Below the pieces are notes generated by a model that saw nothing but the letters and a program-made list of their open reading frames with translations, did no database searches and was not told the DNA's origin. Shown in pieces: positions 2,896-20,001 of a stretch of DNA of 64,000 nucleotides. The stretch lies in contig JAACJP010000029.1 in NCBI GenBank assembly GCA_013368375.1, positions 372,001 through 436,000 of the forward strand, written 5' to 3'. How positions within the stretch are numbered: the first letter of the stretch is position 1; the number at the start of each line of letters is the position of its first letter. The stretch is from Tricholomella constricta. Its lineage: Eukaryota; Basidiomycota; Agaricomycetes; Agaricales; Lyophyllaceae. The position numbers were made by a program, and so were the translations under genes.

Positions 2896-3253
2896 TTGCT
2901 GTGAAGTTATAGCTACGACCGAAGACTGAATCTGAACCATCTAAAGTGTCAGAGCTTGAGTGCGACGGGCGGTGCGGCTTCTGCTCACCTGGAAAATCTG
3001 AGGTCAAGTGCGAAGGCGACGAAGACTTCAGATCTCCAAGCGAGGCAAGAAGGGGTGCGGGGTCTCACCTTCGTCGCGGAGACAAGGGAGCTCGATCATG
3101 ATCGAGGAAGGCAGGGATAAGATGGGGAACGGATCCTAGTACGCGCGGGGCGTCACATCTTGTTCTCTGCGTGAGCTGCGCGGGCCGAGGAGGCGGTAAC
3201 GAGCGCAATTGACGTACCGGAGATTAGACTTATGTAAACAGGTTTAAAGTCGA
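2896..3253 (-). repeat. Terminal direct repeat, 3' copy, of the DIRS-like element
   Basis: The repeat is 358 bp and nearly identical to the 5' copy. The sequences just outside the two copies (2877-2895 and 3254 on) do not resemble each other, so the usual Ngaro A1-B1-A2-B2 split-repeat layout is not evident. Confidence 0.8.
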
Positions 3254-3452
3254 CTAATCACCCTTCGGTCGTCTCGTGAAGCTGACTCAAGGGAAATCAG
3301 GAGGTTTTAGCCGGACACGGGCTCGCCCTGAAACAGCGGCGGAGCCCTGAAAAAGGCTCGATTCTCGCGGGAAACGCTATGGGGCTAAGAAGGAAGAGGA
3401 AGAAAGATGGAGAGACTGAGACGGGTGTCGATTGTGAACCGTGAGGAGTTTG

Positions 3453-4418
3453 TTAGCGTTGGTGATTTCGGAGTGTGGCGGCGAGGAGGGTAGGATGGTT
3501 GCGGACATAAATTTGGTACGTTTCGGATGCCCATCGTCCAAGTGCTTGGATAACGTGACCGGGGACGCCGGCTTCAGCGTAGGCGGTCGCGCCTCCTGCT
3601 CGGAGGGATTGACCTCCTGTGCCGTCCGGGAAGAGAGGCGTGAGACGACGAAGGAACCAACGACGGGTGGGAATGGTGCCGTTCGAGCATAGCCACAGCT
3701 CGGGGTTCAAGGGGAAGAGAAGGTCGCGTGAGTGCAGGTAGGTGGAGAAGGCGCGGTGGGGGTCGTCTTCGGTGTTGGTAGATTGAATTAGGATCTTGTT
3801 GCCTTCGAAGAGTCGGTCCGCTTTATGGAAAGGGAGAAGGAAAGAGAAGTGGAGGTCTGTGAGTGTAGCCGAATGGCGAAGCGTTACTTTTCGGTAGTCC
3901 TGGAGTTTTTTCTTGTCAGGCCACGCGAGTTCCCCGAGTCGGAGGAGTCCGTGAAATCCGGTGAGTAGCATGGATAGAAAGAGTTTGTCGTCATGGGTGG
4001 TGCAGGGGGAGAGCCGGGCGCAAGCAGCTGCGAGCTCGGAGCGCGTAATCGCACGTCTGCGTGATGTAGTGGCAGCGTGAAGTTTCGTGCAGCCGCGGAG
4101 GGTGTTTGTGACGAGTTTGTGTTTGCGATTGGCATGGACGTGGGGGTAGAGGGGGGAGAGATTATTGCAGATACCGGATAAGTACGAAGTGACTGATTTA
4201 GTCTTGATGTAGTGGGACATATAAACGATGTATAAGCTGAGAGTGTCGGGGGTGGGATCGATAGGGAGTTGGTGAAGGGTGCAAAATTCGATGTAAGAGC
4301 GGAGGGCGGAGGAGTAAGAGTCGTGTGATGAAGGTTCAAGAACCGCGCCCAGAGCAATGTTCCGTTCGTGCTCGAGGCGCGCGCGTGGCCAGGCGGTCCG
4401 GGTGGGACGACTGGCCAT
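3453..4418 (-). CDS. Tyrosine recombinase of the DIRS-like element
   Basis: The protein has 321 residues. The N-terminal half (HDSYSSALRSYIEFC to TLSLYIVYMSHY) resembles the SAM-like core-binding domain of phage-type integrases. The catalytic half contains the first arginine in GFHGLLRLGEL, then SLRAGGATAYAEAGVP (the HxxR box, where His reads as Gln-Ser-Leu-Arg), GRW, and the presumed nucleophile in YQIYVR. Loss of the first His of HxxR is tolerated in many DIRS-like recombinases. It would join a circular DNA copy to the target. The ATG at 4418 follows the RT stop closely, suggesting a shared transcript. Confidence 0.85.
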   Translation of the reverse strand: MASRPTRTAWPRARLEHERNIALGAVLEPSSHDSYSSALRSYIEFCTLHQLPIDPTPDTLSLYIVYMSHYIKTKSVTSYLSGICNNLSPLYPHVHANRKHKLVTNTLRGCTKLHAATTSRRRAITRSELAAACARLSPCTTHDDKLFLSMLLTGFHGLLRLGELAWPDKKKLQDYRKVTLRHSATLTDLHFSFLLPFHKADRLFEGNKILIQSTNTEDDPHRAFSTYLHSRDLLFPLNPELWLCSNGTIPTRRWFLRRLTPLFPDGTGGQSLRAGGATAYAEAGVPGHVIQALGRWASETYQIYVRNHPTLLAATLRNHQR

Positions 4419-4430
4419 GGTTTCCTTGGG

Positions 4431-6683
4431 TTAAATCTGTGCCGCCCCCAGCGTCAATCGAGGGGGTGTAAATGGTAGGAGGGTCAGGCCTGGGGATAGT
4501 TCCCGGGCGACATCGAATTTATGGCGGGAGAGGGCGTTGGCGACGCCGTTTTCCTCACCTGGGATGTGTCGAACAGATAGCTGAACTCGGAAGCGGATCA
4601 GGAGGTCAACGGAGGTGATGAGGAAGGGGTTGTAGCGCGGGGAGGCGCGGAAAGAGTCAAAAATGTCCACAGTGTTCTGGCTGTCTGTAAAGATGGCGAT
4701 GCGTCTGGGGGCTGGCTGCAGCTGCGCAGCCCAGAGAAGGGCCGAAGTGACCGCCATTGCTTCGAAGAAGAAAATCCCCTTCGTCTTGTCACGCTGGTCT
4801 CGCTCGTTAATGGCGGAATGGAAACCCATGTTGCGTGATGGGGACCAGTAGCCCATGCCGGTGCCAGACGCATCGGTATAGAGCGTCTCGTCGGCGGTCG
4901 TAATGGGCCAGTCGACGGAGTCAAGAATGAAGATCCCGCTCGACGTTGTGATGTGGTCAGCTAGCCAGATGAGTTCACGGACGAGCTCGCGGCTCACCCA
5001 GATCTTTGCAAAAGGATTTTGCTTTCCACTCATCTTCATGTACAGATGACAGAGCCCCGGGCGAAGGAGGGGATAGACATTCAATGCCCAGTTAATCCAA
5101 CCTCCAAGCTTTTGGAACTCACGGAGAGGATGGCGTGTTCCGGGTACGGCGAAGGTGCGGATGGCAGTGAGGAGATCAGCGCGGGAGTCGTTCGGCATGG
5201 TGATGGTCATGGCGTTTGTATCGACCTCCATGCCGATGATGGTGAGCTTCGCTCCCCATACCTGTTTATCGTCGTTATGGGGAACACGGAGTTCATCCCA
5301 GAGGGTGAGGAGGTGAACCTGTTTAGCTGGCATGAATCTGTTGTACGGTGCGTAGTAAAGGAGGTTGTTTTCGAGCTCCCACGAGAAGGAGTCGTCAACG
5401 TACGCGAGGAGGTCGGCGAGGAGTTTGATGTAGATAGCAATCCAGATTACAAGGGCGAAGAAGGCCCCCCAGATGTCGCCAGCTGCACGATTCCCGAAGT
5501 TGTTGTTCCAATCAACGGTGTAGAGTCCATCGATTTTTACTACTTGCTTTATCTGCCAGAGCGGGTGCATTGGCATGGTCCTGTAGGCGCGGGCGACGTC
5601 GCTCTTGAAGAGGACGAGGCGGGTTCCCGGAGGTAACGAGGCGCGCGCTTTCCGTAGTACACGACCGAGATCCTGAAGGTTGTCGAGCGGAGTGGGGAAA
5701 GAGGCCTTTGGGATCATGCTATTGCGTGATAGCGGTTCCGCCGAGTGGTCGACGCAGAGGCGCGGCTTGGTTGGATTTCGCTCTGAGATGGTGACCGGTA
5801 CGGCGAGCATGCCGGGAAGGAGTCGAGAGAAAGTGGGGAAGAAAGCTCCCAGTTCGATTTCCTTGTCACGCTGAGCGATAGCAGTAGCGACGTGTCCTGG
5901 GTTTCGGAGTGGATAGACATCTCCGAAGGTTGTGGGAAGGACAACACCGGCAGTAATTGCTCGCGGCCAGAAACCGAAACTAAAACCATTGCAGACAGAA
6001 TCGACCAACGGCTGATTCGGGTGCGTGCGTAGTAGGTCGCGGAACACGGAAACGTTAATAGGACTGGATACGCGAAAGAGATGGGGATAGTTATATATGG
6101 TGGTGCATGCAGTGAGGTTCGAAAGTTCATTATCTGGGACAGGCGAAAGAGGAGGCATGATGGTAGAAGCAAAGGCAAGCGTACATCGTGTTGCGTCTCG
6201 TTCCTCCTTATCCGCGTCCTCAGCCCAGATCAGATCTCGGGCGTACGAGGGCCGGTAGTGAAGGAGGAGTTCGACTGAGGATGAGCTACTTCCGGTTCGT
6301 CCCTCGAGCAGGTTGAGAGGCTGAGGGGCAGTGGCTCGCAACATGTCCAGTGTTTCGGCACCTGGAGCAAATGTGGGCGTAGGCACAGGCACTATTTCCG
6401 TTGGGGCATTGCCCGTCATTCCAGCGTCTGCAAGCGTCTCTACGTCGGCTTGAGGAAGCCCGTCGAGACTGGACGTCACTATCTCCAGAGGCTCCGGCGT
6501 TTTGAAGCCAGAGCATAGAGAGGTCGGCAAAAGCGGCATGATCCGTGAGGAGGAGGTCTCGTCGCTGAGCCACTCGAAGTCGCACAGCTCGATCGAACTG
6601 AATGACCCGAGAGTGGCGGGTTGGGGCGAAGGATGCAAAGAGTTGTTTGACGTATTTGCCGTATGCAGCCAATTCGGCAGCAC
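4431..6683 (-). CDS. DIRS-like reverse transcriptase-RNase H
   Basis: The frame of 750 codons opens inside gag, but similarity to the family begins near the gag stop, with HPNQPLVDSVCNGFSFGFWP around 6030-5970. The RT core includes LVLFKSDVARAYRTMPMHPLWQIKQV and the catalytic motif LAYVDD. RNase H follows with LYTDASGTGMGYW, an FFFEAMAV glutamate, FTDSQNTVDIF and a final NALSRH segment, supplying the D-E-D-D set. The frame lies +1 relative to gag, so expression by frameshift or reinitiation is likely; no clear signal was found. The stop at 4431 lies 12 bp before the recombinase start. No frameshift or stop interrupts the domain. Confidence 0.85.
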   Translation of the reverse strand: MLPNWLHTANTSNNSLHPSPQPATLGSFSSIELCDFEWLSDETSSSRIMPLLPTSLCSGFKTPEPLEIVTSSLDGLPQADVETLADAGMTGNAPTEIVPVPTPTFAPGAETLDMLRATAPQPLNLLEGRTGSSSSSVELLLHYRPSYARDLIWAEDADKEERDATRCTLAFASTIMPPLSPVPDNELSNLTACTTIYNYPHLFRVSSPINVSVFRDLLRTHPNQPLVDSVCNGFSFGFWPRAITAGVVLPTTFGDVYPLRNPGHVATAIAQRDKEIELGAFFPTFSRLLPGMLAVPVTISERNPTKPRLCVDHSAEPLSRNSMIPKASFPTPLDNLQDLGRVLRKARASLPPGTRLVLFKSDVARAYRTMPMHPLWQIKQVVKIDGLYTVDWNNNFGNRAAGDIWGAFFALVIWIAIYIKLLADLLAYVDDSFSWELENNLLYYAPYNRFMPAKQVHLLTLWDELRVPHNDDKQVWGAKLTIIGMEVDTNAMTITMPNDSRADLLTAIRTFAVPGTRHPLREFQKLGGWINWALNVYPLLRPGLCHLYMKMSGKQNPFAKIWVSRELVRELIWLADHITTSSGIFILDSVDWPITTADETLYTDASGTGMGYWSPSRNMGFHSAINERDQRDKTKGIFFFEAMAVTSALLWAAQLQPAPRRIAIFTDSQNTVDIFDSFRASPRYNPFLITSVDLLIRFRVQLSVRHIPGEENGVANALSRHKFDVARELSPGLTLLPFTPPRLTLGAAQI

Positions 6684-7565
6684 GGTGGGGGAAGACGTAG
6701 ATCATGGCCTCCCAGGCCGAGTCACAGGCGATGACCCACTCTGAATGTGTTCTGACGGTACGGGCTGGGGCAGTAGGTCCTGCAACGATCTCGAGATGTC
6801 CAAGTCTCTCTCGTCTCTGGTCATCGAAGGAGACCGAGTAGAGAGAGGAGAGGACGCGGTCGAAGTCGACCGCCTTTCCTGAGAGTAGGCTGGACCACTC
6901 GGTGCCTGGGAACTGTGGGCACCGAGGCGAGTTGGTGAGCAAAGACTTCGCGACCTTGAGATCCCTCGCAAAGTTTTCGAGGGCGAGCTGAGTCCTTCTG
7001 AGGTCAGGCGAGAGGACTGAGGGCGTCTCCTCCTCCTGAGCGATCCATGGGAGAGTGGAGACGTCGATGCGACGCCTAGAGGAGACTTGGCCGTCGTCGT
7101 CGGAGGAGGAACGGGGTCGCTTAGCCGGAGGAGCAGGATCAGAATGTCCGTCGTCTGTAGGGTCTGGATCGTGTGTGTTCCTAGGCCCACCGTCCCCGGG
7201 CTGGTCGTCCTCTCCGGCTCCGTCGGGGACACGAGCGCCGTGAACGGCAGCGTTTGCTCGGAACCGTTCAAATCCATCCAGGATGGCGACGAACGAAGAG
7301 AAAGCCGCGACAAAAGCGTCGGCTTCGGGGTCTGCGCCGTCCTTACAGAGGATGTCGTGGATGAGGAGGATTGCCGAGGGCTTGGAAAACTCGCCGGCTC
7401 GGTAGCGATCCGTGACTGCAGTGCAGAGTCTCGAGATCTAGGAAGAGAAGGGAGGTGGTGAGTCTGGCCTCCCGTCCCCGTTACCTCCGAGCCGTCGGTT
7501 TCCCTCTGAGTCTGACTGGTCGCCGTCCGGTCGCTGCTGACTTTCCTGCGCTTGTTGGCCTTCAT
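6286..7565 (-). CDS. DIRS-like gag with zinc fingers, one intron
   Basis: I place the start at the ATG of 7565 (MKANKRRKVSS) and an intron at 7484-7438 (47 bp, GTAACG to CCTAG). This joins in phase to an open frame running from 7437 to the stop at 6286, giving about 411 residues. The frame downstream of the intron is open well upstream of any ATG, which is why a spliced start is needed. The C-terminus has a CCCH-like finger (CRRWNDGQC...CAYAH) followed by a CCHC knuckle (CSRCRNTGHVASHC), as in nucleocapsids. The middle shows the conserved helical segment LLTNSPRCP to LSSLYSVSFDDQRRERLG. The 3' end overlaps the RT frame. An intron inside a retroelement gag is unusual. Confidence 0.7.
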
Positions 7566-7789: not shown

Positions 7790-8263
7790 TGTTAGGGGAA
7801 CACCCGTTCACGCCCTCCGACGCTCACCAACTGTTCCCCGACACGTGCGCTCGCTCCTGACCGATCGCGATCCCGACCCCGACGCTCTGACCCAAGCGTC
7901 GGTGTACATATTTACCTTACTCACTTCCTGTCATTCCCCTCATTTCCCTGTTCATATTCCCGATCACCTGACATCCCGACGACGGTTACCATCAGACAGC
8001 ATCCGGAACCCGCTCATCATTATCACCTGTCATGGTTATCACATGTCGTTATTATCACATGTACAGTACACTATGGAAAGCCTGCCCTCATGTATCACAC
8101 TTGTATATAGCCGGCCCCCTGGCATCTGGGAATCCTTTACACTATTCTCTTTGGATTCCCCTTTGCCAGGTAAGCCTTATTTACCTCGTTACAGTACATC
8201 AATATAACTTTGGATTCCCCTTTGCCAGTACGACTAAGCTCTGCTCTAAAGGTTGCCCTAACA
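7790..8263 (+). repeat. 5' LTR of the chromovirus
   Basis: It has TG...CA ends with an 8-bp perfect inverted terminus. It carries a TATA box at 8104-8109 and the decamer at 8139-8148 that is complementary to the primer site just past the LTR. Confidence 0.95.
8104..8109 (+). promoter_or_regulatory. LTR TATA box
   Basis: TATATA lies about 35 bp upstream of ACACTATTCT (8139). The spacing is what would be expected if transcription begins at or next to that decamer. Confidence 0.55.
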
Positions 8264-8265
8264 GC

Positions 8266-8275
8266 AGAATAGTGT
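8266..8275 (+). promoter_or_regulatory. Candidate self-primer binding site
   Basis: AGAATAGTGT begins 2 nt after the LTR end and is the exact reverse complement of ACACTATTCT at 8139-8148. No tRNA-type TGG site follows the LTR. Tf1-type elements prime minus-strand DNA with the first 11 nt of their own mRNA; the layout here matches that scheme. Confidence 0.6.
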
Positions 8276-8387
8276 CTCTTAGAAACCCGACGAAGCCGAC
8301 CGACCAGCTTCCGCGCCGAAACACGCGTCTGCTACACGCGACCGTCCAACGCGCGCTCGCTGATCGCCCGCCCAGTCCCGTTTCGAG

Positions 8388-9631
8388 ATGTCCGAATTTG
8401 GTGACATGCCGCTCGAACGACCGTTCTCTCCCTTCCTCACGACGGAGGAGCGGTTGGCGAATATGGAAGCCACGATTTCGGCTCTCTCCGCCTCCAACAC
8501 ATCCAACTCGGCCTCTATGGACCGCCTCTCCGCTCTTTTCGAAAAACTCATGTCGGGGACACCCCCCAATCCCACCCCCGCTGCTCCCGAAGCAGACACG
8601 ACCCCTCCGCCGCCTGAGACGATCCCTCCGTTGCCTGCGACGACCCCTCTGCTGCCAGGCGCTCCGCAATCAGGATCGCACCACCTCCGACCATCGCCCC
8701 CTCCCATTTACGACGGCGCCCGGTCAGGCGGTCGCGCGTTCTGGAACGCCTGCAACCTCTACTTCTCCTTGTGCGGGGGAAGTTTCGCCGACGACCACGC
8801 CCGAATCGTATGGGTGCTGTCGTACATGCAGCACGGACGAGCCGCCGACTTCGTCAGTCGAGTGTTCCAGTTCGGAACCGCCAAGGACGTCTTTCCCGCC
8901 TGGAAGGACTTCGAAGACACCTTCCGTGGCGAGTTCTTCCTCTTCGACGAAGTCGCTGACGCCGCGCTCATCTTGGAGTCGACGGCGTACTTCCAGAACA
9001 GTCGGTCGATCGACGAGTACATCGACTCGTTCCGATCCCTGTGGGTCAAGGCAGGCTACCCCGATGGGCGCCACCTGGTCCTCAAATTTTGTCGGGGCAT
9101 GGACCCAAAGCTTTCGAGGCGACTTGGAAGCATCACCACGGGTCGCCCGCACGACGAGAAGATTGAGGAGTGGCTGAGGATCGCCTGTTCTCAAGACTTC
9201 ATCATGAGGTCGGAGGACGACTTCCACCGTCGGATGGTCCCGACAAAGGCGCCGGACGGCCGCCCAACCACCGCCGTAGCCGCACGATGGGCGTTCGCTA
9301 CTGCCCCCACTCCCATTCCCACTCCCGCTTCTGCCCCTCCCGCCCCTCGCGCTCCATCGCACCAGCCCCTAGGCCGCTCCCCCAGGGCGTCCCGATGGAT
9401 GTCGATCGGATGCGCGACCGGGTCGCACCTGCCGACGACCACTGCTTCCGGTGCAAGAAGAAGGGTCACTACTCTCGTGACTGCCCTTTGCGCTGGGACG
9501 TGCGCCACATGCTCGATGATGAGCTGGAGGCGCTTATCATGGAACGTCTAGCTCGCAAGGACGCAGTCCCCGCCGACCCGACTCCATCGTCGGCCGACGC
9601 GACCGCCTCCGACGCCGAGGAGGGTTTTTAA
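8388..9631 (+). pseudogene. Chromovirus gag, one indel
   Basis: The ATG at 8388 opens a frame with a coiled-coil-like start (LTTEERLANMEATISAL), a proline-rich spacer and the Retrotrans_gag core (RAFWNACNLYFSLC to FRSLWVKAGYPDGRHLVLKFCRGM). The CCHC knuckle CFRCKKKGHYSRDC lies in the frame -1 to this one. The switch falls between about 9366 and 9384 with no recognisable slippery site in phase, so I read it as a mutation of this copy. The knuckle frame continues to the stop at 9629-9631 and carries the pol frameshift signal. Product: capsid and nucleocapsid. Confidence 0.8.
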
Positions 9632-9664
9632 TCACACAACGGGTGGAACGTACGCCCCCGTTGT
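9622..9664 (+). promoter_or_regulatory. -1 ribosomal frameshift signal between gag and pol
   Basis: The heptamer GGGTTTT (9622-9628) is in phase as G GGT TTT, directly before the gag TAA. After a 7-nt spacer, ACAACGGG (9636-9643) pairs perfectly with CCCGTTGT (9657-9664) across a 13-nt loop. Slipping back one base leads straight into the pol frame, which is open from there. All three classical components are present. Confidence 0.7.
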
Positions 9665-12600
9665 CTAGTCGTAATCGGTTCGCTCCTTTATCCGTAGAAT
9701 ATGCCAATACACCTAATATTGCTGCTATTCCGATGAGTGAACCGACCGACAAAGACGTACAAAACCCCTCCGACCCGACGACACCGATCGCAGTCGCAAA
9801 GCTGATCGCCCCATCGCGTCGTGGCCTACCCCGCTGGGAAAAGCGACTTCCTAGTCGCTTCATCGCCGCTGCCTCCCCCTGCCCCAGATCCCTGTGGCTC
9901 AACGTTGAACTGGAGACCACCGACACCCAGGAGTCGCACGCCGTCACTGCGCTAGTGGACAGCGGAGCGACCGGCAGCTTTCTCAATATCGCTTTCGTCG
10001 AGAAACACAAACTCACGACCAAGGTGCTTAGTCGGCCATCCCCAGTTTACAACGTAGACGGCACCCTCAACGAAGGCGGTTCGGTCTCTTGCATCGTAGA
10101 AGCTGTCTTGCGATACAATGGTCATACCGAACGAGCCGTCTTCGGGGTCACCCAGTTAGGCAAGCACGACATGATCCTCGGGTTCAACTGGCTTAAAAAC
10201 CACAACCCTGAGATCGACTGGGAGACCAAAGAGGTGAAGATGAGTCGCTGTCCGATGCAGTGCGACACCTGCAAGGATGAGGTCAAAGCCGATCGGCGCG
10301 CACGTACCAAAGTGCGCGCAGCAATCCGTGCCTGTCGAGCCGATGGCATCCCGATGATTGAGCCTGACCTGCGGGCCCCGACCAATCCGTACGTGGAGGA
10401 CGACTCTGATGACGACGAGTTCCTCCCCTACACTCCGATCCTGGAGGAACCCGACCCAGAGTCCGACGACTTCCTGACGGAGACCTTCCTGAATGGCGAT
10501 CGCATCTTCGCGACCGCGATCCATCCGACCCCGACCGCCGAACATATTCGGGCCAGCCAAACGACATCGCAGCGACTTGCGGAAGCGCACGCTGCTAACT
10601 CCGTGCCCAAAACGTTCCGCGACGCCGTACCCACCCACCTCCACGACTTTGAAGATGTCTTCTCCAAAGTTGTGTTCGATGAGCTCCCAGAGCGCAAGCA
10701 ATGGGACCATGCGATCGAACTGGAGCCGGGCGCGTCACCAACCGGCACGAAGGTCTACCCGCTGTCACCGGCGGAACAGGTTGAACTCGACGCGTTCCTC
10801 AAGGAGAACCTCGAGTCGGGTCGGATCCGTCCGTCGAAGTCGCCCATGGCTTCGCCAGTGTTCTTCATCAAGAAGAAGGATGGTGCGCTCCGGCTGGTGC
10901 AGGACTATCGGACGCTCAACGCGCTTACGGTGAAGAACCGGTACCCACTGCCGCTCATTAGCGAACTGGTGAATAACCTTCGCGGCGCGCGGTACTTCAC
11001 CAAGCTGGACGTCCGATGGGGGTACAACAATGTTCGGATCAAGGAAGGCGACGAGTGGAAGGCAGCGTTTCGGACGAACCGCGGTCTCTTCGAGCCGCTC
11101 GTCATGTTCTTCGGCCTCACGAACAGCCCCGCCACATTTCAGACCATGATGAATGATATTTTCCGCGATCTGATCGCTGAAGGTGTTGTTTGCGTGTACC
11201 TCGACGACATCTTGATTTATACCAAGACTCTAGAGGAACACCGTCGGGTCGCGCGATTAGTACTGGACCGACTTCGCGAACATCAGTTGTTCTTAAAGCC
11301 CGAGAAATGCGAATTCGAACAGACCAAGATCGAGTATCTGGGGCTGATCATTTCGCAAGGGCAAGCGGAGATGGACCCTGTTAAGGTCGCTGGAGTGTTG
11401 GAATGGCCAGCGCCGAAGAACAAGAAGGAAGTGCAAGCATTCCTAGGCTTCACTAACTTCTACCGACGGTTCATCCAGGACTTCTCGCATCACGCCCGAC
11501 CCCTGTTCGATCTGACAGGCAAGGACGTCGCCTGGCGGTGGGGAGAGTCGGAGCAGTCGGCCTTTGGCCTTCTGAAGTCGGCGATCACATCGGGGCCCGT
11601 TCTCATGTTCCCTGACGACGACCGACCGTACCGCATCGAAGCCGATTCATCTGACTTCGCAACGGGCGCGGTCCTGTCGCAAGAGTCGCCGTCCGACGGT
11701 AAATGGCACCCCGTCGTGTTCTACTCAAAGAGCTTGAACGCCGTCGAGCGGAACTACGAGATCCATGACAAGGAGATGCTAGCGATCATCCGGTCTCTGG
11801 AGGAGTGGCGACACTTCGTAGAAGGCGCAAAGCACAAGGTGGAGATCTGGACCGACCACAAGAACCTTGAGTACTTCCTCACCGCGAAGAAACTCAATCG
11901 GCGTCAAGCCCGATGGTCGCTCTACCTCGCTAACTTCGACGCCCTCCACCACCGTCCTGGCCATAGCATGGGCAAACCCGATGCGTTATCGCGTCGCCCC
12001 GACCATGGCGACGGAAGCGCCGACAACGCCAACATCGTGCTGCTCAAACCAGAGTTCTTCGCCGTTCGTGCAACTGAAGGCCTTGCACTGGTCGGAGAAG
12101 AGGATGACGTGCTGAAGGCAATTCGCAAGGGCAACCGCGATGGCGCACAGGAGGATGCGGTCGCGAAAGCGGCGCAACTGGTCAGGGCATCTAAGATCGC
12201 CGGTCGCTCCCTTCGCTTTCGCGAGTGGGGAGAGGAAGGCGGTCTGCTCACGTTCCGTGGACGGATCTATGTCCCGAACGTTCCTGACCTCCGCCGACGC
12301 ATCGTGGAGCACCACCACGACTCCAAGGTCGCCGGTCACCCAGGTCGCTGGAAGACGTTAGAGCTGGTGTCGCGCAACTACTGGTGGCCCCAGATGTCGC
12401 GCTTCATCGGTTCCTACACCAGCACCTGCGACATGTGCTTGCGCACGAAACCCCGCCGCCAACTCCCCGTCGGACAGCTGCAGCCGCTCCCATTCCCGAA
12501 GGCCGATGGAATGTCGTGTCGGTCGACTTCATCACCGAACTCCCCGAGTCCAATGGCCACGACGCGAACATGAACGTCGTGGACTCGGTCGGAAAACGCG

Positions 12601-13374
12601 CGCACTTCATCGCGTCGCACACGACTTGTTCGGCTTTGGGGGCTGCAAACCTCTACCGGCGCCACGTCTGGAAGCTCCACGGTCTCCCAGATGCCTTTGT
12701 CTCCGATCGAGGTCCACAGTTCGTCGCCGAATTCACGCGCAAACTGTACCGACTCCTGGGTATCAAGCTGTCGGCTTCGACGGCGTACCACCCGCAGACC
12801 GACGGACAGACCGAACGCGTCAACCAGGAGCTGGAACAGTTCTTGCGGGTCTTCTGCAATGAGCGTCAGAACGACTGGGAGGACCTCTTGCCCGACGCCG
12901 AATTCAGTTACAACAACCATGTACATTCGGCGACGCAGCAGACCCCCTTCCTGCTCGACACTGGTCGGCATCCACGCATGGGCTTTGAGCCACGTCGGGG
13001 CGCTTCCAAAAACGAGTCGGCCGACGAGTTTGTGGAGCGCATGAAGGAAGCACAGGAAGAAGCCAAGGCAGCACTCTCAAAGGCCAAAGACGACATGGAG
13101 CGGTACTACAACCAGCGACACGCCCCAACGCCCGACTACCAGCCTGGCGACAAGGTGTACTTGGATGCGACCGACATTTCTACGACCCGACCATCTAAGA
13201 AATTGTCGCATCGCTACCTTGGCCCTTTTGTCGTGCAAAGGCGAGTCGGCCCGCTCGCATACCGCCTCCTGCTGCCTCAGTCCATGAAGCGCATCCACCC
13301 AGTCTTCCACGTCGTGAAACTCATCCCCGCCGTCGCTGATCCGATCGAAGGTCGTCGGTCCAATCCTCCTCCTC
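9628..13374 (+). pseudogene. Chromovirus pol (PR-RT-RH-IN), frameshifted
   Basis: Pol is reached by -1 frameshift. Domains in order: retropepsin (ALVDSGATGSF, about 9945-9975), RT with LDVRWGYNNVRI, FGLTNSPATFQ and YLDD at 11197-11208, RNase H (EADSSDFATGAVLSQ, then EIHDKEMLAI), the integrase zinc domain (HHHDSKVAGHPG...CDMC), the DDE core (VSVDFITELP, FVSDRGPQFV, AYHPQTDGQTERVNQELE), and the C-terminal GDKVYLDATD and LGPFVVQRRVG part. A single missing base near 12497-12499, just before the DDE core, shifts the frame, so this copy cannot make integrase. The coding sequence is then broken at 13374 by the inner LTR element; its tail resumes at 17273. Confidence 0.9.
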
Positions 13375-13568
13375 TGTAAGGACGCAGGTCCATACTGGTC
13401 ACCTGTGTTGGCATTGTTTGGCAACGCCTTCGGCGTTGCCTATATCTATTGTTTATATCTATTATTTTAAGTAGATCTTCGCAACTTCATGTACAACTAG
13501 CAGAAAATGACATCTGGTCAAGCTCGGTTGTAGTGTGAAACGCGAGGTCGTCCTGTAGCACCGCTACA
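13375..13568 (+). repeat. 5' LTR of the hairpin element
   Basis: 194 bp. It includes two perfect hairpins: GGCAACGCC/GGCGTTGCC with loop TTC (13420-13440) and TGTAGC/GCTACA with loop ACC ending exactly at the LTR boundary (13554-13568). Confidence 0.93.
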
Positions 13569-13592
13569 TTTTTTTGAGCTATCCAGCTCTAC

Positions 13593-13628
13593 TGCTATAT
13601 CCAGCTATATCCCGCTATATCCCGCTAT
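13593..13628 (+). repeat. Decamer tandem repeat
   Basis: GCTATATCC(A/C) is repeated about three and a half times directly before the ORF of the hairpin element, in its leader. Confidence 0.7.
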
Positions 13629-13688
13629 ACTGCTTCTTTTCTTATTCTGGCCAATCAAACCCCTTTTGGCCAACACCGACATCTTGAT

Positions 13689-16421
13689 ATGACATCGAGA
13701 ACCACCCAGGACCATGCGACACGCGCATGGACACACGAGGCCGCGGACACGCGGCCACGTCACTCGTCGGAACCGCAGCTTGCGGCTCCGAGAGATTTTT
13801 CGATGCTCGAAGCATCGAAATTGATGCCACGTCACCTGGCAGAACCGCCGGCGGCGGTTCCTTCGAGCAAACTCGAACCGTTTCTATGGAACGGCACAGG
13901 CGAATCTTCGTCGCCTGTGCACGAAGACTGGATCGAGCTCGCCCTTTTACGGCGCGAGCTACAGCTCTTTTGGTCGGCTACTAGGATAACCGATGACAGT
14001 CAGCGACGCAGGCTCGAAGCCTGCGCTGAAAACGATGTATCTGAGTATTTCGGACGAATATACATTGATGTAGGACATACAGAGTACCTACAACGATACA
14101 TGAACGCGCTACGCGCACGCTATCGCGAATGGTGCGGTCAAGGAACCGCACCGACTAAAAGCACTACACCTTCCGCTTGGGAGGTAAAAATGGAAGCGTT
14201 CTGGGCGACGACGGACGTCCAGAGCCAGTACCGGCGTCGGAGGTTGCTAGAGAAAACCGACAACATGTACCGGAAGTATGGGGTAAAATGCATGCACCAT
14301 ACGGCGGTCGGCGATTCGTACGCCGACAAAACTATAGGAACACTGCGTGATATCGTGGACCTATACAGGAAGCGGCGTCCGAAGGACGCAAAACTAGGGA
14401 TATCGCAATCGTGCGATGCAAGTACGATGGTGCCGCAGGCGCCATCGCCAATAAAGTCGACGAGACCATCAACTGATGGTCTTAAAAACGAACGCTCGGA
14501 CGGCTTGAGTGCCGCCCCCTTCAAATCGATCGTGAAGCGATCCGAAAGACGCGAGAGCAATGGTCTCGCATCGGTGAACGTCACATATAGTGGCGGACAC
14601 GACGACCGCAACTGGCGAGCACCGTCGCCGACGCACGAGCAAAGTGGGCGACGGAGGTCAACGCCCAAGCAGGAGGCCTTTCAATCGGGCAACGTAGAGG
14701 GTATCGTCGAGCATCGGAGGATGCTCAAGGAGACACGAACCGAGGAGAACGTCGTATCCGAACGACGTTCTGGTGGAGGGGAGAGGTACCAGAGCAGTAG
14801 CCGCCACCCCACAAACGAGAAGATGAAGGAAACGTCGCAGAGCGACGTGTTACGATTCATGGGGCCCAGCAAAGGCGCAACAGATGCTGGCAAGAAAGGT
14901 GCCAGCGATACAACGTCGGAGGTGTCGAACATACGACATTCGGAGGCCGAGACACGTCGGGAAGGCGCAGGGAACGAGCACCGACGGAGTATGGTCCGGA
15001 CAGACCATGCTACAGATAAGGGCGCGCGGCAAGGTCGTGCGCATCAAGTCGAACCGCACCGAGAAGGTGTACCGGAGGACAGCAAGCGTCCTCCCACCAA
15101 GCCTAGGAACAGGCTTGCATCAGCGCGTTCAGTAACACGCGCTTACTCGTCATATAGGTACGCTACACCTAGACCCTACAGTGGCGCTATGGCCGCCACA
15201 TCGGTGTCGGAGAGCGCCAGCGTGCGCCCTCAACCGGAACGACCACCGGAGCACCCAAGAAGAGGTGCCGTCATCGATGGCGGAGAAGCAACTGCAAACG
15301 CATCCCAGATAACGGGGAGGCACACGAGCGGACCAAGGAGCTTACCTGGTCTGCAAAACGCTGGGCAGAGCCCAGCAGCAAAACCGAGCACAGCACGTCT
15401 AGTTAAAGACGTGCGAGACAAGCATCCGGCATTACCGGAGGTGTGGACAAAAGTCCGCAAGGGAGAAGATGGGGGTGGTGAACGCCCATCGAAGAAGACT
15501 GAACGCCACGGGACGACGACCGCAAATGTGCAGACGCCGGCATACCCGGAGGTGGACTTCCACATTGCGTGGTGGATAGCACGACGCATCGACGATGGAA
15601 GCGAATGGAACGAGACGTTCCGGGAGCTAATGCACGATCGGCCGGAAGACAATGTGCGCCGGGTCTGGAGGTGGGTGAGGTACCACCTCCGGCATCACAG
15701 AGAGGAACTCCGTGCGGACACGGGGTTAATGGGCGTCAAGCCTGTTGCGGAGACGGCGTCAAGCGCTGTATCCGATGGTGGATCTAGTGACCGACCCAGT
15801 GAAGCGGGAAGGTCAAGATCGAGTTCGCAAATTGGACAGGAGCGAACACGTACCCCCGACCATGTCCTAGACTGGGTAGAGGGTAATTCGAGAACCTACT
15901 CGCGCAGTATGAGCGCGATTAGGGGCAATTACGACATGGTGGTATCGACACCATCGGCAGCTCGGAATGAAATGTCCACCGAGCGATTGGCGTGTATGCG
16001 CCAAATTGTTCATCGCACATATGGCGATGAACCGGAAGGGGAAGACGACGGGAATGGTGAGCGGTCCGAAGGTCATTCGGAACGCTCAGAAGCATGGCAT
16101 GTCCGAACATATGAATGTGAGGACGCATGCCACGAGTACCAGTACCTCGATGAAGACGGGAAGGAAATTCACGTCTACGAAGTGGAGAGCGATGGGGAAA
16201 CCAACGCTCTCGAGGCGGAATATGATAGCTACCGTGAACGTGGTAGCTATCAAGAGGAGGAGGAGAGTGGCGCTGAGCATAGCGGCTCGGAAGACGCTCG
16301 GTCTAACGACGAGCAGGAGAATGGCGCTGCACATAGCGGCCCAGAAGACGCTCGTTCGAACGACGAGCAAAGCGACGAAAGCGCTCGTTATGATGATAAT
16401 GAGTGCACCGACTCCGATTGA
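13689..16421 (+). CDS. Unidentified 910-residue protein of the hairpin element
   Basis: The ATG at 13689 opens the only long frame. I do not recognise the family. The protein is charged and largely hydrophilic, with no signal peptide, membrane segment, zinc knuckle or retroviral enzyme motif. Two related helical blocks are visible: LFWSATRITDDSQRRRLEAC with a following YLQRYMNALRARYREW (about residues 97-155) and AFWATTDVQSQYRRRRLLEK with TLRDIVDLYRKR (about 175-232). A third WWIARRIDDGSEWNETFREL to WRWVRYHLRHHREEL (about 622-675) may be related. The C-terminus is acidic and includes a 20-residue tandem repeat with HSGSEDARSNDEQ. It sits where gag would be and may be a nucleic-acid-binding or capsid-like protein; that is inference from position only. 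Codons are constrained by the hairpin array throughout. Confidence 0.75.
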   Translation: MTSRTTQDHATRAWTHEAADTRPRHSSEPQLAAPRDFSMLEASKLMPRHLAEPPAAVPSSKLEPFLWNGTGESSSPVHEDWIELALLRRELQLFWSATRITDDSQRRRLEACAENDVSEYFGRIYIDVGHTEYLQRYMNALRARYREWCGQGTAPTKSTTPSAWEVKMEAFWATTDVQSQYRRRRLLEKTDNMYRKYGVKCMHHTAVGDSYADKTIGTLRDIVDLYRKRRPKDAKLGISQSCDASTMVPQAPSPIKSTRPSTDGLKNERSDGLSAAPFKSIVKRSERRESNGLASVNVTYSGGHDDRNWRAPSPTHEQSGRRRSTPKQEAFQSGNVEGIVEHRRMLKETRTEENVVSERRSGGGERYQSSSRHPTNEKMKETSQSDVLRFMGPSKGATDAGKKGASDTTSEVSNIRHSEAETRREGAGNEHRRSMVRTDHATDKGARQGRAHQVEPHREGVPEDSKRPPTKPRNRLASARSVTRAYSSYRYATPRPYSGAMAATSVSESASVRPQPERPPEHPRRGAVIDGGEATANASQITGRHTSGPRSLPGLQNAGQSPAAKPSTARLVKDVRDKHPALPEVWTKVRKGEDGGGERPSKKTERHGTTTANVQTPAYPEVDFHIAWWIARRIDDGSEWNETFRELMHDRPEDNVRRVWRWVRYHLRHHREELRADTGLMGVKPVAETASSAVSDGGSSDRPSEAGRSRSSSQIGQERTRTPDHVLDWVEGNSRTYSRSMSAIRGNYDMVVSTPSAARNEMSTERLACMRQIVHRTYGDEPEGEDDGNGERSEGHSERSEAWHVRTYECEDACHEYQYLDEDGKEIHVYEVESDGETNALEAEYDSYRERGSYQEEEESGAEHSGSEDARSNDEQENGAAHSGPEDARSNDEQSDESARYDDNECTDSD
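16266..16375 (+). repeat. 60-nt tandem repeat in the 910-residue ORF
   Basis: Two direct copies start near 16266 and 16326, encoding the acidic repeat with HSG(S/P)EDARSNDEQ. Both copies keep the CTCG...CGAG stem although the loop sequence changed. Confidence 0.7.
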
Positions 16422-17078
16422 GCGTGTTGGGCTCGTTGTGCCCAACAGTTCCTATCCAGGTCTTTGAGATGCGATATGAGACGCATCAGTCCGGCAGCCG
16501 TATCGGTTATGTGTCGACGTTGATAAACGTCGAGGTGGCAGCCTACGCGACTTTAACCACAGTCGCAGCGATATCCATCGCTGAAATCCTTGTGGCGTAT
16601 ACGTCGGCGCGATAAATAGCGCCTCAGTCTTCTGCGGTGGTTCAACCAGCCCTGGTCTGGCAGTTGCAATAGCTGTCGACGAGGAGTCGAAGACGGAGCC
16701 AAAAAATCGATGAAGCCATAAATCACCGGCTAACGACTCGATTGGCGACTATCAAACCAACTCAGGCGCGAAAGTCATCGTTGGGCATTATGTGTCCAAC
16801 CCTAGCCAGTACGTCCGCGGAACATGGACGCCAATCTCTCAGAGACTGGAGGAACAAGTCGCGGTCGACAGAATCGACACTACGTTAGGGCCATGACCTA
16901 ACATTATCATTATTCCATATCGTCGGGGTACCAATACCCAGACGCGACAACTGTGGCGCATAAAATATGCGCAATACATTCGACTATTGTTGCGCGTACT
17001 GTACGCGCAATATATACGACATTCCCTCGACATCTGCCCGGGTGTAAAGATTGCTGAGTGCAATCTTAAAGGGGGGTA
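16422..17078 (+). other. Non-coding tail of the hairpin element
   Basis: No gene is seen. The 657 nt are packed with perfect hairpins up to the polypurine tract at about 17068-17078. Confidence 0.7.
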
Positions 17079-17272
17079 TGTAAGGACGCAGGTCCATACT
17101 GGTCACCTGTGTTGGCATTGTTTGGCAACGCCTTCGGCGTTGCCTATATCTATTGTTTATATCTATTATTTTAAGTAGATCTTCGCAACTTCATGTACAA
17201 CTAGCAGAAAATGACATCTGGTCAAGCTCGGTTGTAGTGTGAAACGCGAGGTCGTCCTGTAGCACCGCTACA
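17079..17272 (+). repeat. 3' LTR of the hairpin element
   Basis: 194 bp, seen as identical to the 5' LTR on comparison by eye. Confidence 0.93.
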
Positions 17273-17978
17273 TCCTCCCCCCGACATAATCAACGACGAA
17301 CCCCATTACGAAGTTGAAAAGATCCTCGATAGCCGAACCTTCCGCAAAAAACTACAGTACAAGGTCCTGTGGAAAGGCTATGGTTACGAAGAAGCTTCAT
17401 GGGAACCTCGCGAAAATGTCACCGCCCCCGATCTGGTACGCAAGTTCCACCGCGACAACCCCGACGCTGCCCGCCACATTCGTGGCATGTTCACATTATC
17501 CCCGGCCATCTTCGCCACCGCTACCCCGCACCGAGTCGTTGCGATTCAAAAGGGGGGTGATGTTAGGGGAACACCCGTTCACGCCCTCCGACGCTCACCA
17601 ACTGTTCCCCGACACGTGCGCTCGCTCCTGACCGATCGCGATCCCGACCCCGACTCTCTGACCCAAGTGTCGGTGTACATATTTACCTTACTCACTTCCT
17701 GTCATTCCCCTCATTTCCCTGTTCATATTCCCGATCACCTGACATCCCGACGACGGTTACCATCAGACAGCATCCGGAACCCGCTCATCATTATCACCTG
17801 TCATGGTTATCACATGTCGTTATTATCACATGTACAGTACACTATGGAAAGCCTGCCCTCATGTATCACACTTGTATATAGCCGGCCCCCTGGCATCTGG
17901 GAATCCTTTACACTATTCTCTTTGGATTCCCCTTTGCCAGGTAAGCCTTATTTACCTCGTTACAGTACATCAATATAA
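17273..17978 (+). pseudogene. Chromovirus integrase tail: chromodomain
   Basis: After the inner element the pol frame continues as YEVEKILDSRTFRKKLQYKVLWKGYGYEEASWEPRENV, a canonical chromodomain (aromatic residues Y, W, W/Y and the WEP motif). It would tether integration to heterochromatin. The frame shows no stop before the 3' LTR and reads through to 17978, inside the LTR. It is separated from the rest of pol by 3.9 kb. Confidence 0.85.
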
Positions 17979-18034
17979 CTTTGGATTCTCCTTTGCCAGT
18001 ACGACTAAGCTCTGCTCTAAAGGTTGCCCTAACA
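17561..18034 (+). repeat. 3' LTR of the chromovirus
   Basis: 474 bp, matching the 5' LTR except for about three substitutions. It is followed by the GGTCT target duplication at 18035-18039. Confidence 0.95.
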
Positions 18035-18229
18035 GGTCTCACCTTTGTCGCGGAGACAAGAGAGCTCGATCATGATCGAGGAAGGCAGGGACAAGATGGG
18101 GAACGGATCCTAGTACGCGCGGGGCGTCACATCTTGTTCTCTGCGTGAGCTGCGCGGGCCGAGGAGGCGGTAACGAGCGCAATTGACGTACCGGAGATTA
18201 GACTTATGTAAACAGGTTTAAAGTCGATC

Positions 18230-19031
18230 AAACTCGCGGTAGAGCGGCTGGCAAAAATGGGATTCGGGGATCCCGGCGTTCCCGAATAAACCCTACCGTA
18301 GGTGCTACGTAACTCGTCGCTTAGCCATTTACAACGCATGCATAAACATTCCCACAATCGAGACGTGGACCCTTTAATCAGACATTTGTGACATTGACGA
18401 GAGGTGTATCTTGGGTGTATCCGTCGACATGCGCTAGGACACATCATTAATTTCGAACTCACGAAGTTTCTTCTTGGTGATACCGCGGGCGATGTAGTGA
18501 AGGCCGGCATCCCGTTTCGTTGGGAGCAGAACAGTGCCGGGTAAGTGCTCTTCATTGTCCTGTGGGCCCAGGCTGTTGATGCAAAAAATAACTGGGGATA
18601 AAATACTGAGGATAACATCACTATGGCTGTATTTTTTGTTGTACAGAAGGCTGACGAGGACTTCCGGCACTGTAGTGTTGGCTTGCGTGATTTTCGAGAG
18701 TAAATAATCGAGTTTCTGCGAGTTGAGTACAATTTTCGATGCAGTCTTTTCTTACGAGTAGGAACCAGACACCTTTTCTTATATGGCTTTGTACCTTCGA
18801 GTGATCACTAATTATCATTGAGGAGTTTGCGGTGCAGTCTCTCGAGAACTAACAGGGGCTTTAGGTACAATGTCACAAATGTCTGATTAAAGGGTCCACG
18901 TCTCGATTGTGGGAATGTTTATGCGTGCGTTGTAAATGGCTAAGCGACGAGTTACCTAGCACCTACGGTAGGGTTTATTCGGGAACGCCGGGATCCCCAA
19001 ATCCCATTTTTGCCAGCCGCTCTACCGGCGG
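18230..19031. other. Outer MULE interior and inverted arms
   Basis: After the DIRS-like element the left MULE arm continues (18230 to about 18417) and is repeated in inverse orientation at about 18885-19031. The 470 bp between contain no transposase; the same interior, shortened, occurs in the copy at 19032-20001. Confidence 0.7.
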
Positions 19032-20001
19032 CAGGCTCCTAAAACCAGCACGCTCGTACCGCTCGATTTCGCATATCAGAACTGCCACGCAATGTATTAT
19101 ATGTAAAAATTTATCTTATCTTATCCAGCCAAACATGAACAATTTTCTATCCAAACAAACAAAAGGAAGGCTCAAACTCGCGGTAGAGCGGCTGGCAAAA
19201 ATGGGATTCGGGGATCCCGGCGTTCTCGAATAAACCCTACCGTAGGTGCTAGGTAACTCGTCGCTTAGCCATTTACAACGCACGAATAAACATTCCCACA
19301 ATCGAGACCTGGACCCTTTAATCAGACATTTGTGACATTGACGAGAGGTGTACTATCCGTCGACATGCGCGTTGACATGCGCGAGGACACATCGTTAATT
19401 TCGAACTCACGAAGTTTCTTCTTGGCGATACTGCGGGCGATGTAGTGAAGGCCGATCCCGTTTTGTTGGGAGCAGAACATGTGCCGTGTAAGTGCTCTTC
19501 TTTGTCCTGTGGGCCCAGGCTGTCAAGCAAAGAAAATAACTGGGGATAAAATACTGAATATATCACTATGGCTGTAAATTTCGTTGTACAGAAGGCCGAC
19601 GAGGACTTTCGGCATTATGTTACTGGCTTGTGAGATTTTCAAGAGTAGGTAATCCAGTGTTTGTGAGTTGAGTCGATGGATACACCTCTCGTCAATGTCA
19701 CAAATGTCTGATTAAAGGGTCCAGGTCTCGATTGTGGGAATGTTTATTCGTGCGTTGTAAATGGCTAAGCGACGAGTTACCTAGCACCTACGGTAGGGTT
19801 TATTCGAGAACGCCGGGATCCCCGAATCCCATTTTTGCCAGCCGCTCTACCGCGAGTTTGAGCCTTCCTTTTGTTTGTTTGGATAGAAAATTGTTCATGT
19901 TTGGCTGGATAAGATAAGATAAATTTTTACATTATATACATTGCGTGGCAGTTCTGATATGCGAAATCGAGCGGTACGAGCGTGCTGGTTTTAGGAGCCT
20001 G
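19032..20001. mobile_element. Second MULE-type MITE copy
   Basis: CAGGCTCC...GGAGCCTG termini, flanked by the perfect 9-bp duplication TACCGGCGG (19023-19031 and 20002-20010). The element is 970 bp with inverted arms of about 330 bp (19032-19366 against 19672-20001) and a 300-bp centre without coding capacity. It inserted into the right arm of the outer copy of the same family. Confidence 0.85.

Follow-up and report, generated by a model that had tools for sequence, protein, structure and literature searches.

Non-autonomous LTR elements of the LARD and TRIM types carry LTRs, a target duplication, and a polypurine tract and lack a polymerase. Retrozymes are small non-autonomous LTR elements that bear hammerhead ribozymes, and RNA structure matters to them. 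In the genome-scale ordered RNA structure (GORS) of persistent RNA viruses, pairing is diffuse, runs through coding and noncoding RNA, and is not conserved in position between relatives. Palindromes within coding sequence have been described in nematomorph mitochondria, where they reach 284 bp and imperfect repeats are not in excess (PMC6649704). Among the open-access papers listed in our literature searches, we found none on a retroelement built as an array of hairpins. Here, we describe such an element, A, in a 64,000-nucleotide stretch of DNA from Tricholomella constricta, which is called the window below.

Element A and its hairpin array

Element A is a complete LTR element at window positions 13375-17272, with 194-bp LTRs and a 5-bp target duplication. 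Its features are listed by position and strand, with the basis in parentheses.

13370-13374, no strand: 5' target site duplication TCCTC (sequence)
13375-13568, +: 5' LTR, 194 bp, TG...CA, with hairpins at 13420-13440 and 13554-13568 (LTR comparison, hairpin scan)
13420-17272, +: hairpin array, 45 perfect hairpins (hairpin scan)
13569-13581, +: primer-binding-site position, a run of T and then GAGCTA (sequence)
13689-16421, +: 910-aa ORF with 33 hairpins and no Pfam match (translation, profile search, hairpin count)
13944-14444, +: two tandem copies of a domain of about 80 aa, at aa 86-162 and aa 163-252 (BLASTP)
16422-17067, +: 3' untranslated part with hairpins, the last at 17047-17067 (hairpin scan)
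17068-17078, +: polypurine tract AAAGGGGGGTA, identical in family B (sequence comparison)
17079-17272, +: 3' LTR, 194 bp, with hairpins at 17124-17144 and 17258-17272 (LTR comparison, hairpin scan)
17273-17277, no strand: 3' target site duplication TCCTC (sequence)

The paired TG...CA LTRs, the 5-bp target duplication, and the polypurine tract are those of an LTR retrotransposon. The two LTRs of the window copy are identical across 193 aligned bases, and the target duplication is exact in 11 of the 13 other copies of A, with a one-base difference in 2. The primer-binding-site position starts without TGG. We found no reverse transcriptase or integrase of the kind that an autonomous Ty3 element carries, nor any other Pfam match in the 910-aa ORF (E up to 0.1), and there were no protein homologs of this ORF among 7,996 candidates scored. 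A belongs to a basidiomycete genome and is a non-autonomous LTR retrotransposon that was active recently. In a protein search with a CPSF73-like ORF, most matches were metagenomic, and Astraeus odoratus (74%) and Serendipita sp. (65%) were the only named species among the 120 matches listed. Its ORF is under purifying selection: no stop interrupts it in 10 full-length copies, the window copy included, and dN/dS is 0.43 to 0.52 between clades. A scan of window positions 8000-19500 (E up to 2) found no ribozyme or known RNA family within A and no hammerhead ribozyme in the LTR. Two weak matches to miRNA models lay outside A, at 18977-19231, scoring 45 to 46.5 bits where the gathering score is 140.

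We counted as hairpins nonoverlapping perfect stems of at least 6 bp with loops of 3 to 8 nt. A contains 45, of which 17 have stems of at least 8 bp and the longest has 11, the maximum in family B as well. An earlier reading of the sequence alone had put the number at over forty, with about a dozen stems of 8 or more and about five hairpins expected by chance, and the counts bear this out: 200 dinucleotide-preserving shuffles of A gave a mean of 4.5 (sd 2.1, maximum 13), or 0.28 (maximum 2) for stems of at least 8 bp. Within the ORF, the 33 hairpins compare with a mean of 4.6 and a maximum of 12 in 100 synonymous-codon shuffles. Thus, neither control proposed by that reading attains the observed density. 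As it also claimed, hairpins occupy the ORF, UTR, and LTR alike, down to the final LTR base (17258-17272), and the neighboring chromovirus coding DNA has nothing comparable, with 5 hairpins in pol against 4.7 in synonymous shuffles. The ORF of a LINE in the window is likewise at chance (3 against 4.9). The 2-kb windows that lie entirely outside A hold 0 to 8 hairpins; the densest such stretch, at 46-49 kb, has 7 to 8 per 2-kb window and zero with a stem of at least 8 bp.

Hairpins are enriched at loop lengths from 1 to about 18 nt, an excess that has largely gone above about 20, so the pairing is local. We found no motif in the loops. Regular spacing was rejected: the CV of the gaps is 0.95, against 0.97 under random placement, and the array is dense, irregular, and nonperiodic.

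Related families and the probable trans-mobilization of A

The same property is found in an autonomous Ty3 family of this genome, B, which is 11,009 bp long and has 118 hairpins across gag, pol, and a third ORF of 990 aa without a Pfam match. Its three ORFs contain 37, 27, and 43 hairpins, against 4.6, 5.0, and 5.3 in synonymous shuffles, and the conserved pol (ORF2) has the lowest density. The excess is strong in a more distant family, D (28 against 5.3 in ORF1 and 23 against 4.3 in pol), and weaker in a sister family, C. Thus, what had been read as the feature of one LTR element does hold for A, but not for A alone, since it is common to the Ty3 lineage of B, C, and D. All three have gag/CCHC/protease and RT-RNase H-integrase domains (B ORF2 was scanned in two pieces), with some gag and protease matches below the curated cutoff. 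A Tf2-type SH3 domain is above the cutoff in all three, and a Chromo match falls short of it in B (20.2 bits, cutoff 25.1) and C (20.3 bits) and is absent from D. B also has a polypurine tract and a 5-bp duplication, and 59 full-length RT entries in the genome are 96 to 100% identical to it. Two scans of viral contigs found no DNA relatives in other fungi. Conservation of hairpin positions between the pol genes of B, C, and D was rejected, with 2 of 27, 2 of 27, and 0 of 11 shared, all within chance.

Folding energies were computed in 300-nt windows. Relative to shuffled controls, mean plus-strand z scores were -5.1 and -4.3 in A, -4.7 and -4.4 in B, -3.6 and -3.3 in C, and -5.0 in D, compared with -1.2 and -1.2 in the window chromovirus and -0.5 in the LINE. 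The excess of folding energy is 25% in A, 26% in B, 20% in C, 25% in D, 6% in the chromovirus, and 3% in the LINE. Selection on the plus-strand RNA specifically is partly supported: the difference between plus- and minus-strand z is clear in C (-1.18, se 0.29, and -1.11, se 0.25), weak in A (-1.13, se 0.50, and -0.68, se 0.34), and little or none in B (-0.33, se 0.16, and -0.16, se 0.23) and D (-0.27, se 0.34). Imperfect pairs in A and B show no clear surplus of G.U over A.C. Polarized changes in A favor G.U (losses, 20 G.T against 14 A.C; repaired, 10 against 20; Fisher P = 0.049), and those in B ORF1 show no such preference (losses, 20 against 22; repaired, 23 against 21).

A and B share cis signals. 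Their LTRs have in common a TGTAAGG start and a 32-bp stretch (91%). After the 5' LTR, both have a run of T and AGCTA (GAGCTA in A, AAGCTA in B), and before the 3' LTR, both have a hairpin and polypurine tract; in A, the hairpin at 17047-17067 directly abuts the tract, and B has the same layout with a compensated stem. The domain of about 80 aa that occurs twice in the A ORF occurs once near the N terminus of B ORF1 (gag), with 29 to 42% identity (best BLASTP E, 2e-13, for B against copy L010 of A). Because A has no polymerase and has LTR and polypurine-tract features in common with B, it is probably mobilized in trans by B of the same genome. The suggestion that A hijacks another element's proteins agrees with the existence of B, an autonomous family that carries such hairpins too.

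Changes between copies and the origin of the hairpins

Comparison of copies suggests that hairpins have been both kept and added by evolution. In B ORF3, double changes that keep a pair numbered 9, 5, and 7 in three comparisons, against 0.35, 0.30, and 0.26 expected (maximum 3 of 500 in each); two of these comparisons are one copy pair read from either side. In A, pair-keeping double changes filled 16 cells against 6.8, a value reached by 0 of 500 shuffles; the 6 pairs that had double changes were an ordinary number (matched by 112 of 500), and further pair types were below shuffled.

The changes that survive longest spare hairpins. At a stem threshold of 6, the 447 changes shared within a clade of A caused 45 losses against 77.6 at random (sd 8.7) and 36 gains against 17.6 (sd 3.7). 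Lineage-fixed changes in B ORF1 (n = 93) gave 11 losses against 18.8 and 12 gains against 4.5, and the unpolarized comparison of copy L035 with the rest (n = 384) gave 31 against 69.0 and 40 against 16.9. Changes private to L034 (n = 128) were near random (20 losses against 22.4 and 10 gains against 7.0), as were the 93 singletons of A (16 against 19.2 and 4 against 4.4) and, among these, the 69 of clade Y (L015, L017, and L019) alone (14 against 13.8 and 3 against 3.5). The LTR pairs of clade Y show one mismatch and one gap opening, against 7 to 8 differences estimated if all singletons arose after insertion; therefore, most of these singletons should predate insertion. Singletons in B ORF3 caused 6 losses against 13.4 and so are not simply random; none of the 45 made a hairpin (2.2 expected, threshold 6).

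Stems chosen through an outgroup change at 0.54 to 0.67 of the local rate in A and 0.57 to 0.59 in B. The deficit is below all shifted controls in B but not in A (control minimum 0.027 against 0.035 observed), and it is small or absent in shallow comparisons. We set aside a halved stem rate in B ORF3 (0.097 against 0.193), since picking stems in one of the compared sequences can alone halve the rate, and did not use an "older" class of changes there (losses, 36 against 110.8; gains, 57 against 22.1) because it is not polarized. In A, dS is 0.063 in stem codons and 0.154 in other codons, a contrast that counts for less because L010 has a mosaic 3' part, nearly identical to the window copy. Decay of the array was expected in old copies of A, yet the outcome was mixed: broken copies L018, L020, and L021 have 8.4 to 9.6 hairpins per kb, against 8.5 to 11.7 in ten full-length copies, and only L016, with 5.7, is clearly lower.

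The comparison of other copies that the sequence-only reading had called for thus revealed coordinated changes and a depletion of hairpin-breaking changes in surviving lineages. Together with shuffles that fall below the observed density, this rules out both chance and free decay. That reading had named two causes, selection on RNA structure and a replication process that writes palindromes. The first is better supported, because losses are about half and gains at least twice random among long-surviving changes and fresh changes have no clear excess of gains.

We consider selection for structure likely: the lineage of A, B, C, and D would have been under long-term selection to cover its genomes, coding and noncoding, with short local hairpins. 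Density would persist while position seems irrelevant, since the families do not have pol hairpin positions in common and the hairpins are randomly spaced. Folding would matter in the genomic RNA and would help at the particle stage, through compaction or structure-based recognition by the lineage's own Gag. Such recognition could let A use B particles despite almost no common sequence. A particle-stage function, taken alone, is a tentative proposal, and so is our preference for compaction or recognition by the element's own particle over its main rival, a shield against RNA silencing. The whole explanation, in which A is a passenger of B, structure is selected throughout the lineage, and its role is in the particle, seems to us on balance probable. 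Hairpin density might itself be an identity mark, with particles taking hairpin-covered RNA whatever its sequence, which we regard as rather doubtful; if true, parasites such as A would stay mobilized only while their genes remained interlaced with hairpins.

Stems too short for Dicer could instead shield sense and antisense RNA from surveillance by blocking small-RNA binding and dsRNA copying. The diffuse, position-independent structure over coding and noncoding parts, as in GORS, the absence of stems above 11 bp, and a near strand symmetry that would let both RNAs fold agree with this; the window chromovirus and LINE manage in the same genome without such structure, and we judge a shield to be about as doubtful as the identity mark.

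It is unlikely, to a slightly greater degree, that stems arise by mutation and bring no benefit, reverse transcriptase copying one arm of a near-palindrome from the other by template switching. Hairpins can arise and persist through template switching (PMC8794818). In yeast genes, it homogenizes arms and inverts the spacers (PMC8604942), and it has been proposed for the hairworm mitochondrial coding palindromes (PMC6649704). In A and B, complementarity hardly differs between the strands, and individual events of the right kind occur: one pair of arms encloses the 3-base loop gaa in L015 and L019 and its inversion, ttc, in L017, and a double change private to L015 turned CCATGCG/CGCATGG into CCATGCA/TGCATGG. 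At a stem threshold of 7, the singletons of A made 5 hairpins against 2.1 (sd 1.5), and 40 young changes in B ORF1 made 3 against 1.8, so a small mutational excess of gains is possible. Hairpin density is lowest in the most conserved ORF of B, which would also fit a tolerated by-product. Against this, singleton gains at threshold 6 are about random in A and zero in B ORF3, mismatches survive over about 2% divergence, and stems end at 11 bp, whereas homogenization might give some long palindromes. A nearby reverse complement explains only 1 of 1,001 nonindependent change clusters, a block in L015 against L017, with short and gapped clusters excluded.

Selection at the DNA level, on cruciforms or hairpins in single-stranded cDNA that serve cDNA stability or strand transfer, for example, is improbable. 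B treats G.U and A.C alike, as would follow if pairing mattered in duplex DNA or in both strands, but the plus strand folds better in C by about 4 standard errors and in A by about 2, and stems of 6 to 8 bp are poor at cruciform extrusion. Chance or base composition, for which we found no support, can be dismissed on the shuffles, folding energies, coordinated changes, and loss and gain counts.

If selection for genome-wide structure is the right reading, this lineage provides a very strong natural example of a structural code laid over the protein code of an RNA genome. Its B copies number in the dozens and are nearly identical, its sister families have diverged, and its non-autonomous passenger has retained the code while having little else in common with them. 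The purpose of dense RNA structure, be it packaging, silencing evasion, or reverse transcription, could thus be tested here.

Comparison with known systems

Like LARD and TRIM, A has LTRs, a target duplication, and a polypurine tract and no polymerase; unlike them, it retains a 910-aa ORF, which evolves under purifying selection and contains a gag-leader domain twice. It resembles retrozymes in being a small non-autonomous LTR element with RNA structure and differs in that no ribozyme family was matched (window 8000-19500, E up to 2). Nematomorph mitochondrial genes also have perfect inverted repeats inside coding sequence, gained and lost between species (PMC6649704), whereas the repeats of A are 6 to 11 bp long, accompanied by many imperfect ones, and carried by a mobile element. 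B is close to the chromovirus-like Ty3/Metaviridae of Agaricomycetes, with ORF2 matches of up to 74% identity, a zinc-knuckle gag, protease, RT-RNase H-integrase, Tf2-type SH3, a weak chromodomain match, a polypurine tract, and a 5-bp duplication. Unlike these relatives, it has a third ORF of 990 aa, and the window chromovirus, 33% identical to B in RT, has no hairpin excess. The likeness to GORS is that pairing in A through D is diffuse through coding and noncoding parts, folding energy is below that of shuffled sequence along the genome, and no positions are conserved between families. The differences are that the genome here is that of a retroelement, that the stems are perfect and 6 to 11 bp long, that the folding excess is 20 to 26%, and that strand asymmetry is clear in C only.

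Hairpin excess and anatomy of element A

The sequence-only reading had described element A, a non-autonomous LTR element, as filled with hairpins (perfect stems of at least 6 bp, loops of 3 to 8 nt) beyond chance. This excess is real. We counted 45 hairpins against 4.5 in dinucleotide shuffles and, for stems of at least 8 bp, 17 against 0.28. Shuffling that exchanged synonymous codons alone gave 4.6 for the ORF, where 33 are present. In folds of 300-nt windows, z averaged −5.1 for the plus strand and −4.0 for the minus strand (−4.3 and −3.7 in a second run), while the host chromovirus gave −1.2 and −1.1 (−1.2 and −1.0). The controls fall short in shuffling and in folding, two of the checks that had been named.

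Features of element A
13375 to 17272: element A, with LTRs of 194 bp and target duplication TCCTC
13569 to 13581: primer-binding position, a T run then GAGCTA (AAGCTA in B, an autonomous Ty3 family), without the usual TGG start
Coding part: a single ORF of 910 aa
Polypurine tract: AAAGGGGGGTA

Element A is nested in the chromovirus (LTRs at about 7790 to 8264 and 17561 to 18035, 99% identical), between its integrase part and a stretch judged by eye to be chromodomain-like. The LTR of A has at least 42 matches in a genome search, and the ORF is free of stops in 10 full-length copies, the window copy counted. LTR pairs are identical over 193 to 195 bases in 7 of the 14 copies compared, so A has moved recently. 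Two A copies, L010 and L012, were set against the window copy. L010 is near-identical to it over the final third and about 12% different in the first part; it is a mosaic, perhaps made by template switching between two RNAs. Copy L023 holds a long inverted and tandem repeat block (1172 to 5652) within a 15.7-kb LTR-to-LTR stretch.

Elsewhere in the window, a mild local surplus of hairpins lies at 46801 to 48755 (9 in 2 kb, stems of 6 to 7, one 20-bp unit present twice). A miRNA model matched 18977 to 19231 on both strands, far under the cutoff; this is probably an inverted repeat. On the minus strand, 3453 to 7565 carries ORFs that we named by eye: one of 321 aa resembles a tyrosine recombinase, one of 750 aa an RT, and another a zinc-knuckle gag. 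This is possibly a tyrosine-recombinase retrotransposon.

The likely helper and the spread of the trait

Element A has no polymerase. We reached family B of the same genome through a weak protein match from A, 37% identical across about 100 aa. LTRs of both begin with TGTAAGG and share a 32-bp stretch surrounding a hairpin, 91% alike. In both, a T run and then AGCTA follow the 5′ LTR, and a hairpin with a polypurine tract, its stem differing by a compensated change, precedes the 3′ LTR. The A protein has two copies of a domain present once in B, near the N terminus of ORF1. B thus appears to be the obvious helper, which would supply the mobilization of A.

The B copy on contig C10 is 11,009 bp long, with LTRs identical over 221 bp and duplication CAAGT. 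Its three ORFs are a gag-protease of 1028 aa, an RT-RNase H-integrase of 1181 aa, and one more of 990 aa; a Pfam scan of ORF2 classes B as chromovirus-like only. This copy contains 118 hairpins, 40 of them with stems of at least 8 bp, against 0 to 1 per 500 bp in its flanks (0 to 3 for the copy on contig C19). Hairpins per kilobase number 12.0 in ORF1, 7.6 in ORF2, and 14.5 in ORF3.

An RT search of the genome, with 84 of 909 candidates scored, returned at least 85 rows. At least 68 were 94 to 100% identical to B (at least 59 of these full length at 96 to 100%), and at least 16, at 80 to 81%, form sister family C. The excess over synonymous shuffles is weaker in C than in B (12/4.3 and 11/4.6 in one copy; 4/2.9, 10/4.8, and 9/2.6 in another). 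It is strong in the more distant family D, whose pol is 58% identical to that of B (28/5.3, 23/4.3, and, partial, 11/2.9). The window chromovirus, with an RT 33% identical to that of B, has hairpins at chance level. Therefore, the property follows this Ty3 lineage, with unequal strength.

Change between copies

In aligned copies, stems were altered on both sides, shifted, or replaced in place, and there were gains and losses. Compensatory change, for which the earlier reading had proposed to test other copies, was found. The ORF3 sequences of 11 B copies fall into two groups that are 84% identical (B1, L039, L040, L045, and L048; L041 to L044, L046, and L047), despite RT rows 99 to 100% identical to the B query. 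This pattern in the sequences is evidence of module exchange between B elements. In three ORF3 comparisons, 9, 5, and 7 pairs had changed on both sides without losing complementarity, the first two comparisons being the same copy pair read from either side; with partners re-dealt, 0.35, 0.30, and 0.26 were expected (maximum 3, of 500). The frame was followed in part of the copies (L039 has one stop; L041 is out of frame at the offsets used). Ten A copies had 16 double-change cells against 6.8 shuffled, a count reached in 0 of 500 shuffles; their distinct double-changed pairs were ordinary (6 against 4.7).

We also picked stems in an outgroup and compared their rate of change with the local rate. 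Stem changes were 16/462 (local 0.064), 23/464 (0.075), and 20/476 (0.064) for the window copy and L010, 25/476 (0.079) and 22/462 (0.077) for the window copy and L013, and 23/357 (0.112) for B1 and L034. The stem rate fell below every shifted control in B, but not below every one in A, and the deficit was small or absent in shallow comparisons. Evidence for decay of the array in old A copies was mixed.

Young and older changes were then split in the manner of McDonald and Kreitman; the control was a set of random changes matched for kind and for trinucleotide context.

Hairpin losses and gains, observed (random)
Changes; losses; gains
A singletons (93); 16 (19.2); 4 (4.4)
A older (447); 45 (77.6, sd 8.7); 36 (17.6, sd 3.7)
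A singletons, stem threshold 7; 13 (12.2); 5 (2.1, sd 1.5)
A older, stem threshold 7; 28 (56.5); 26 (10.9)
Clade Y (A copies L015, L017, L019) singletons (69); 14 (13.8); 3 (3.5)
B ORF1, lineage-fixed; 11 (18.8); 12 (4.5)
B ORF1, L034-private, near random; 20 (22.4); 10 (7.0)
B ORF1, L035 versus rest, unpolarized; 31 (69.0); 40 (16.9)
B ORF1, young (40); 6 (8.1); 3 (1.8)
B ORF3 singletons (45); 6 (13.4); 0 (2.4)

Survivors keep and add hairpins, and new changes in A and in B ORF1 and ORF3 showed no clear surplus of gains. This is the pattern predicted by selection. Of the two causes first offered, selection on RNA structure thus fits the survivors, while a process that writes palindromes lacks a clear surplus among new changes. 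A modest mutational bias toward hairpins, or one hidden by changes after insertion, is possible: the threshold-7 gains of A singletons are mixed or adverse for selection, and we saw one 3-base loop inversion by eye. Against such a bias stand the gains of A and B ORF3 singletons at stem threshold 6, at or below random, and a scan for template-switch footprints, which found 1 reverse-complement, 0 reverse, and 0 complement cases in 1001 nonindependent clusters from 15 comparisons, short and gapped segments being skipped. In clade Y, LTR pairs were identical in 2 of 3 copies, and the third had one mismatch and one gap opening. By our arithmetic 7 to 8 differences would be expected if every singleton postdated insertion, so most singletons should predate it. 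L015 singletons were strand biased (G>A 15/25, C>T 6/25), a pattern as from damage to minus-strand cDNA.

Folded strand and possible role

RNA is our first choice for the folded molecule, with a plus-strand preference that is clear in C, weak in A, and slight or absent in B and D. For the strand difference in z, C gave −1.18 (se 0.29) and −1.11 (se 0.25), A gave −1.13 (se 0.50) and −0.68 (se 0.34), B gave −0.33 (se 0.16) and −0.16 (se 0.23), D gave −0.27 (se 0.34), and the chromovirus gave −0.14 (se 0.25) and −0.15 (se 0.20). G.U was not commoner than A.C in imperfect stems of A and B; among polarized changes, A leans to G.U tolerance (P = 0.049), but B does not. Loops are A rich (0.35 to 0.36, against 0.28 to 0.29 between hairpins).

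Hairpin positions in pol were not conserved between families, the loops yielded no motif, and the hairpins were spaced at random. These results favor a bulk property of the RNA over a fixed set of signals. The hairpins would serve the lineage's own cycle, for example in RNA compaction or RNA uptake by its particle. We prefer such a role to a general defense against the host because a non-autonomous passenger keeps its hairpins and the array is missing from two other retroelements in this genome.

Among the open-access papers listed by our searches, none dealt with a retroelement built as an array of this kind. In other systems, PMC6649704 describes coding palindromes in mitochondrial genes of Nematomorpha, PMC8794818 treats template switching as a maker and keeper of hairpins, and PMC8604942 describes arm homogenization and spacer inversion by template switching in yeast genes.
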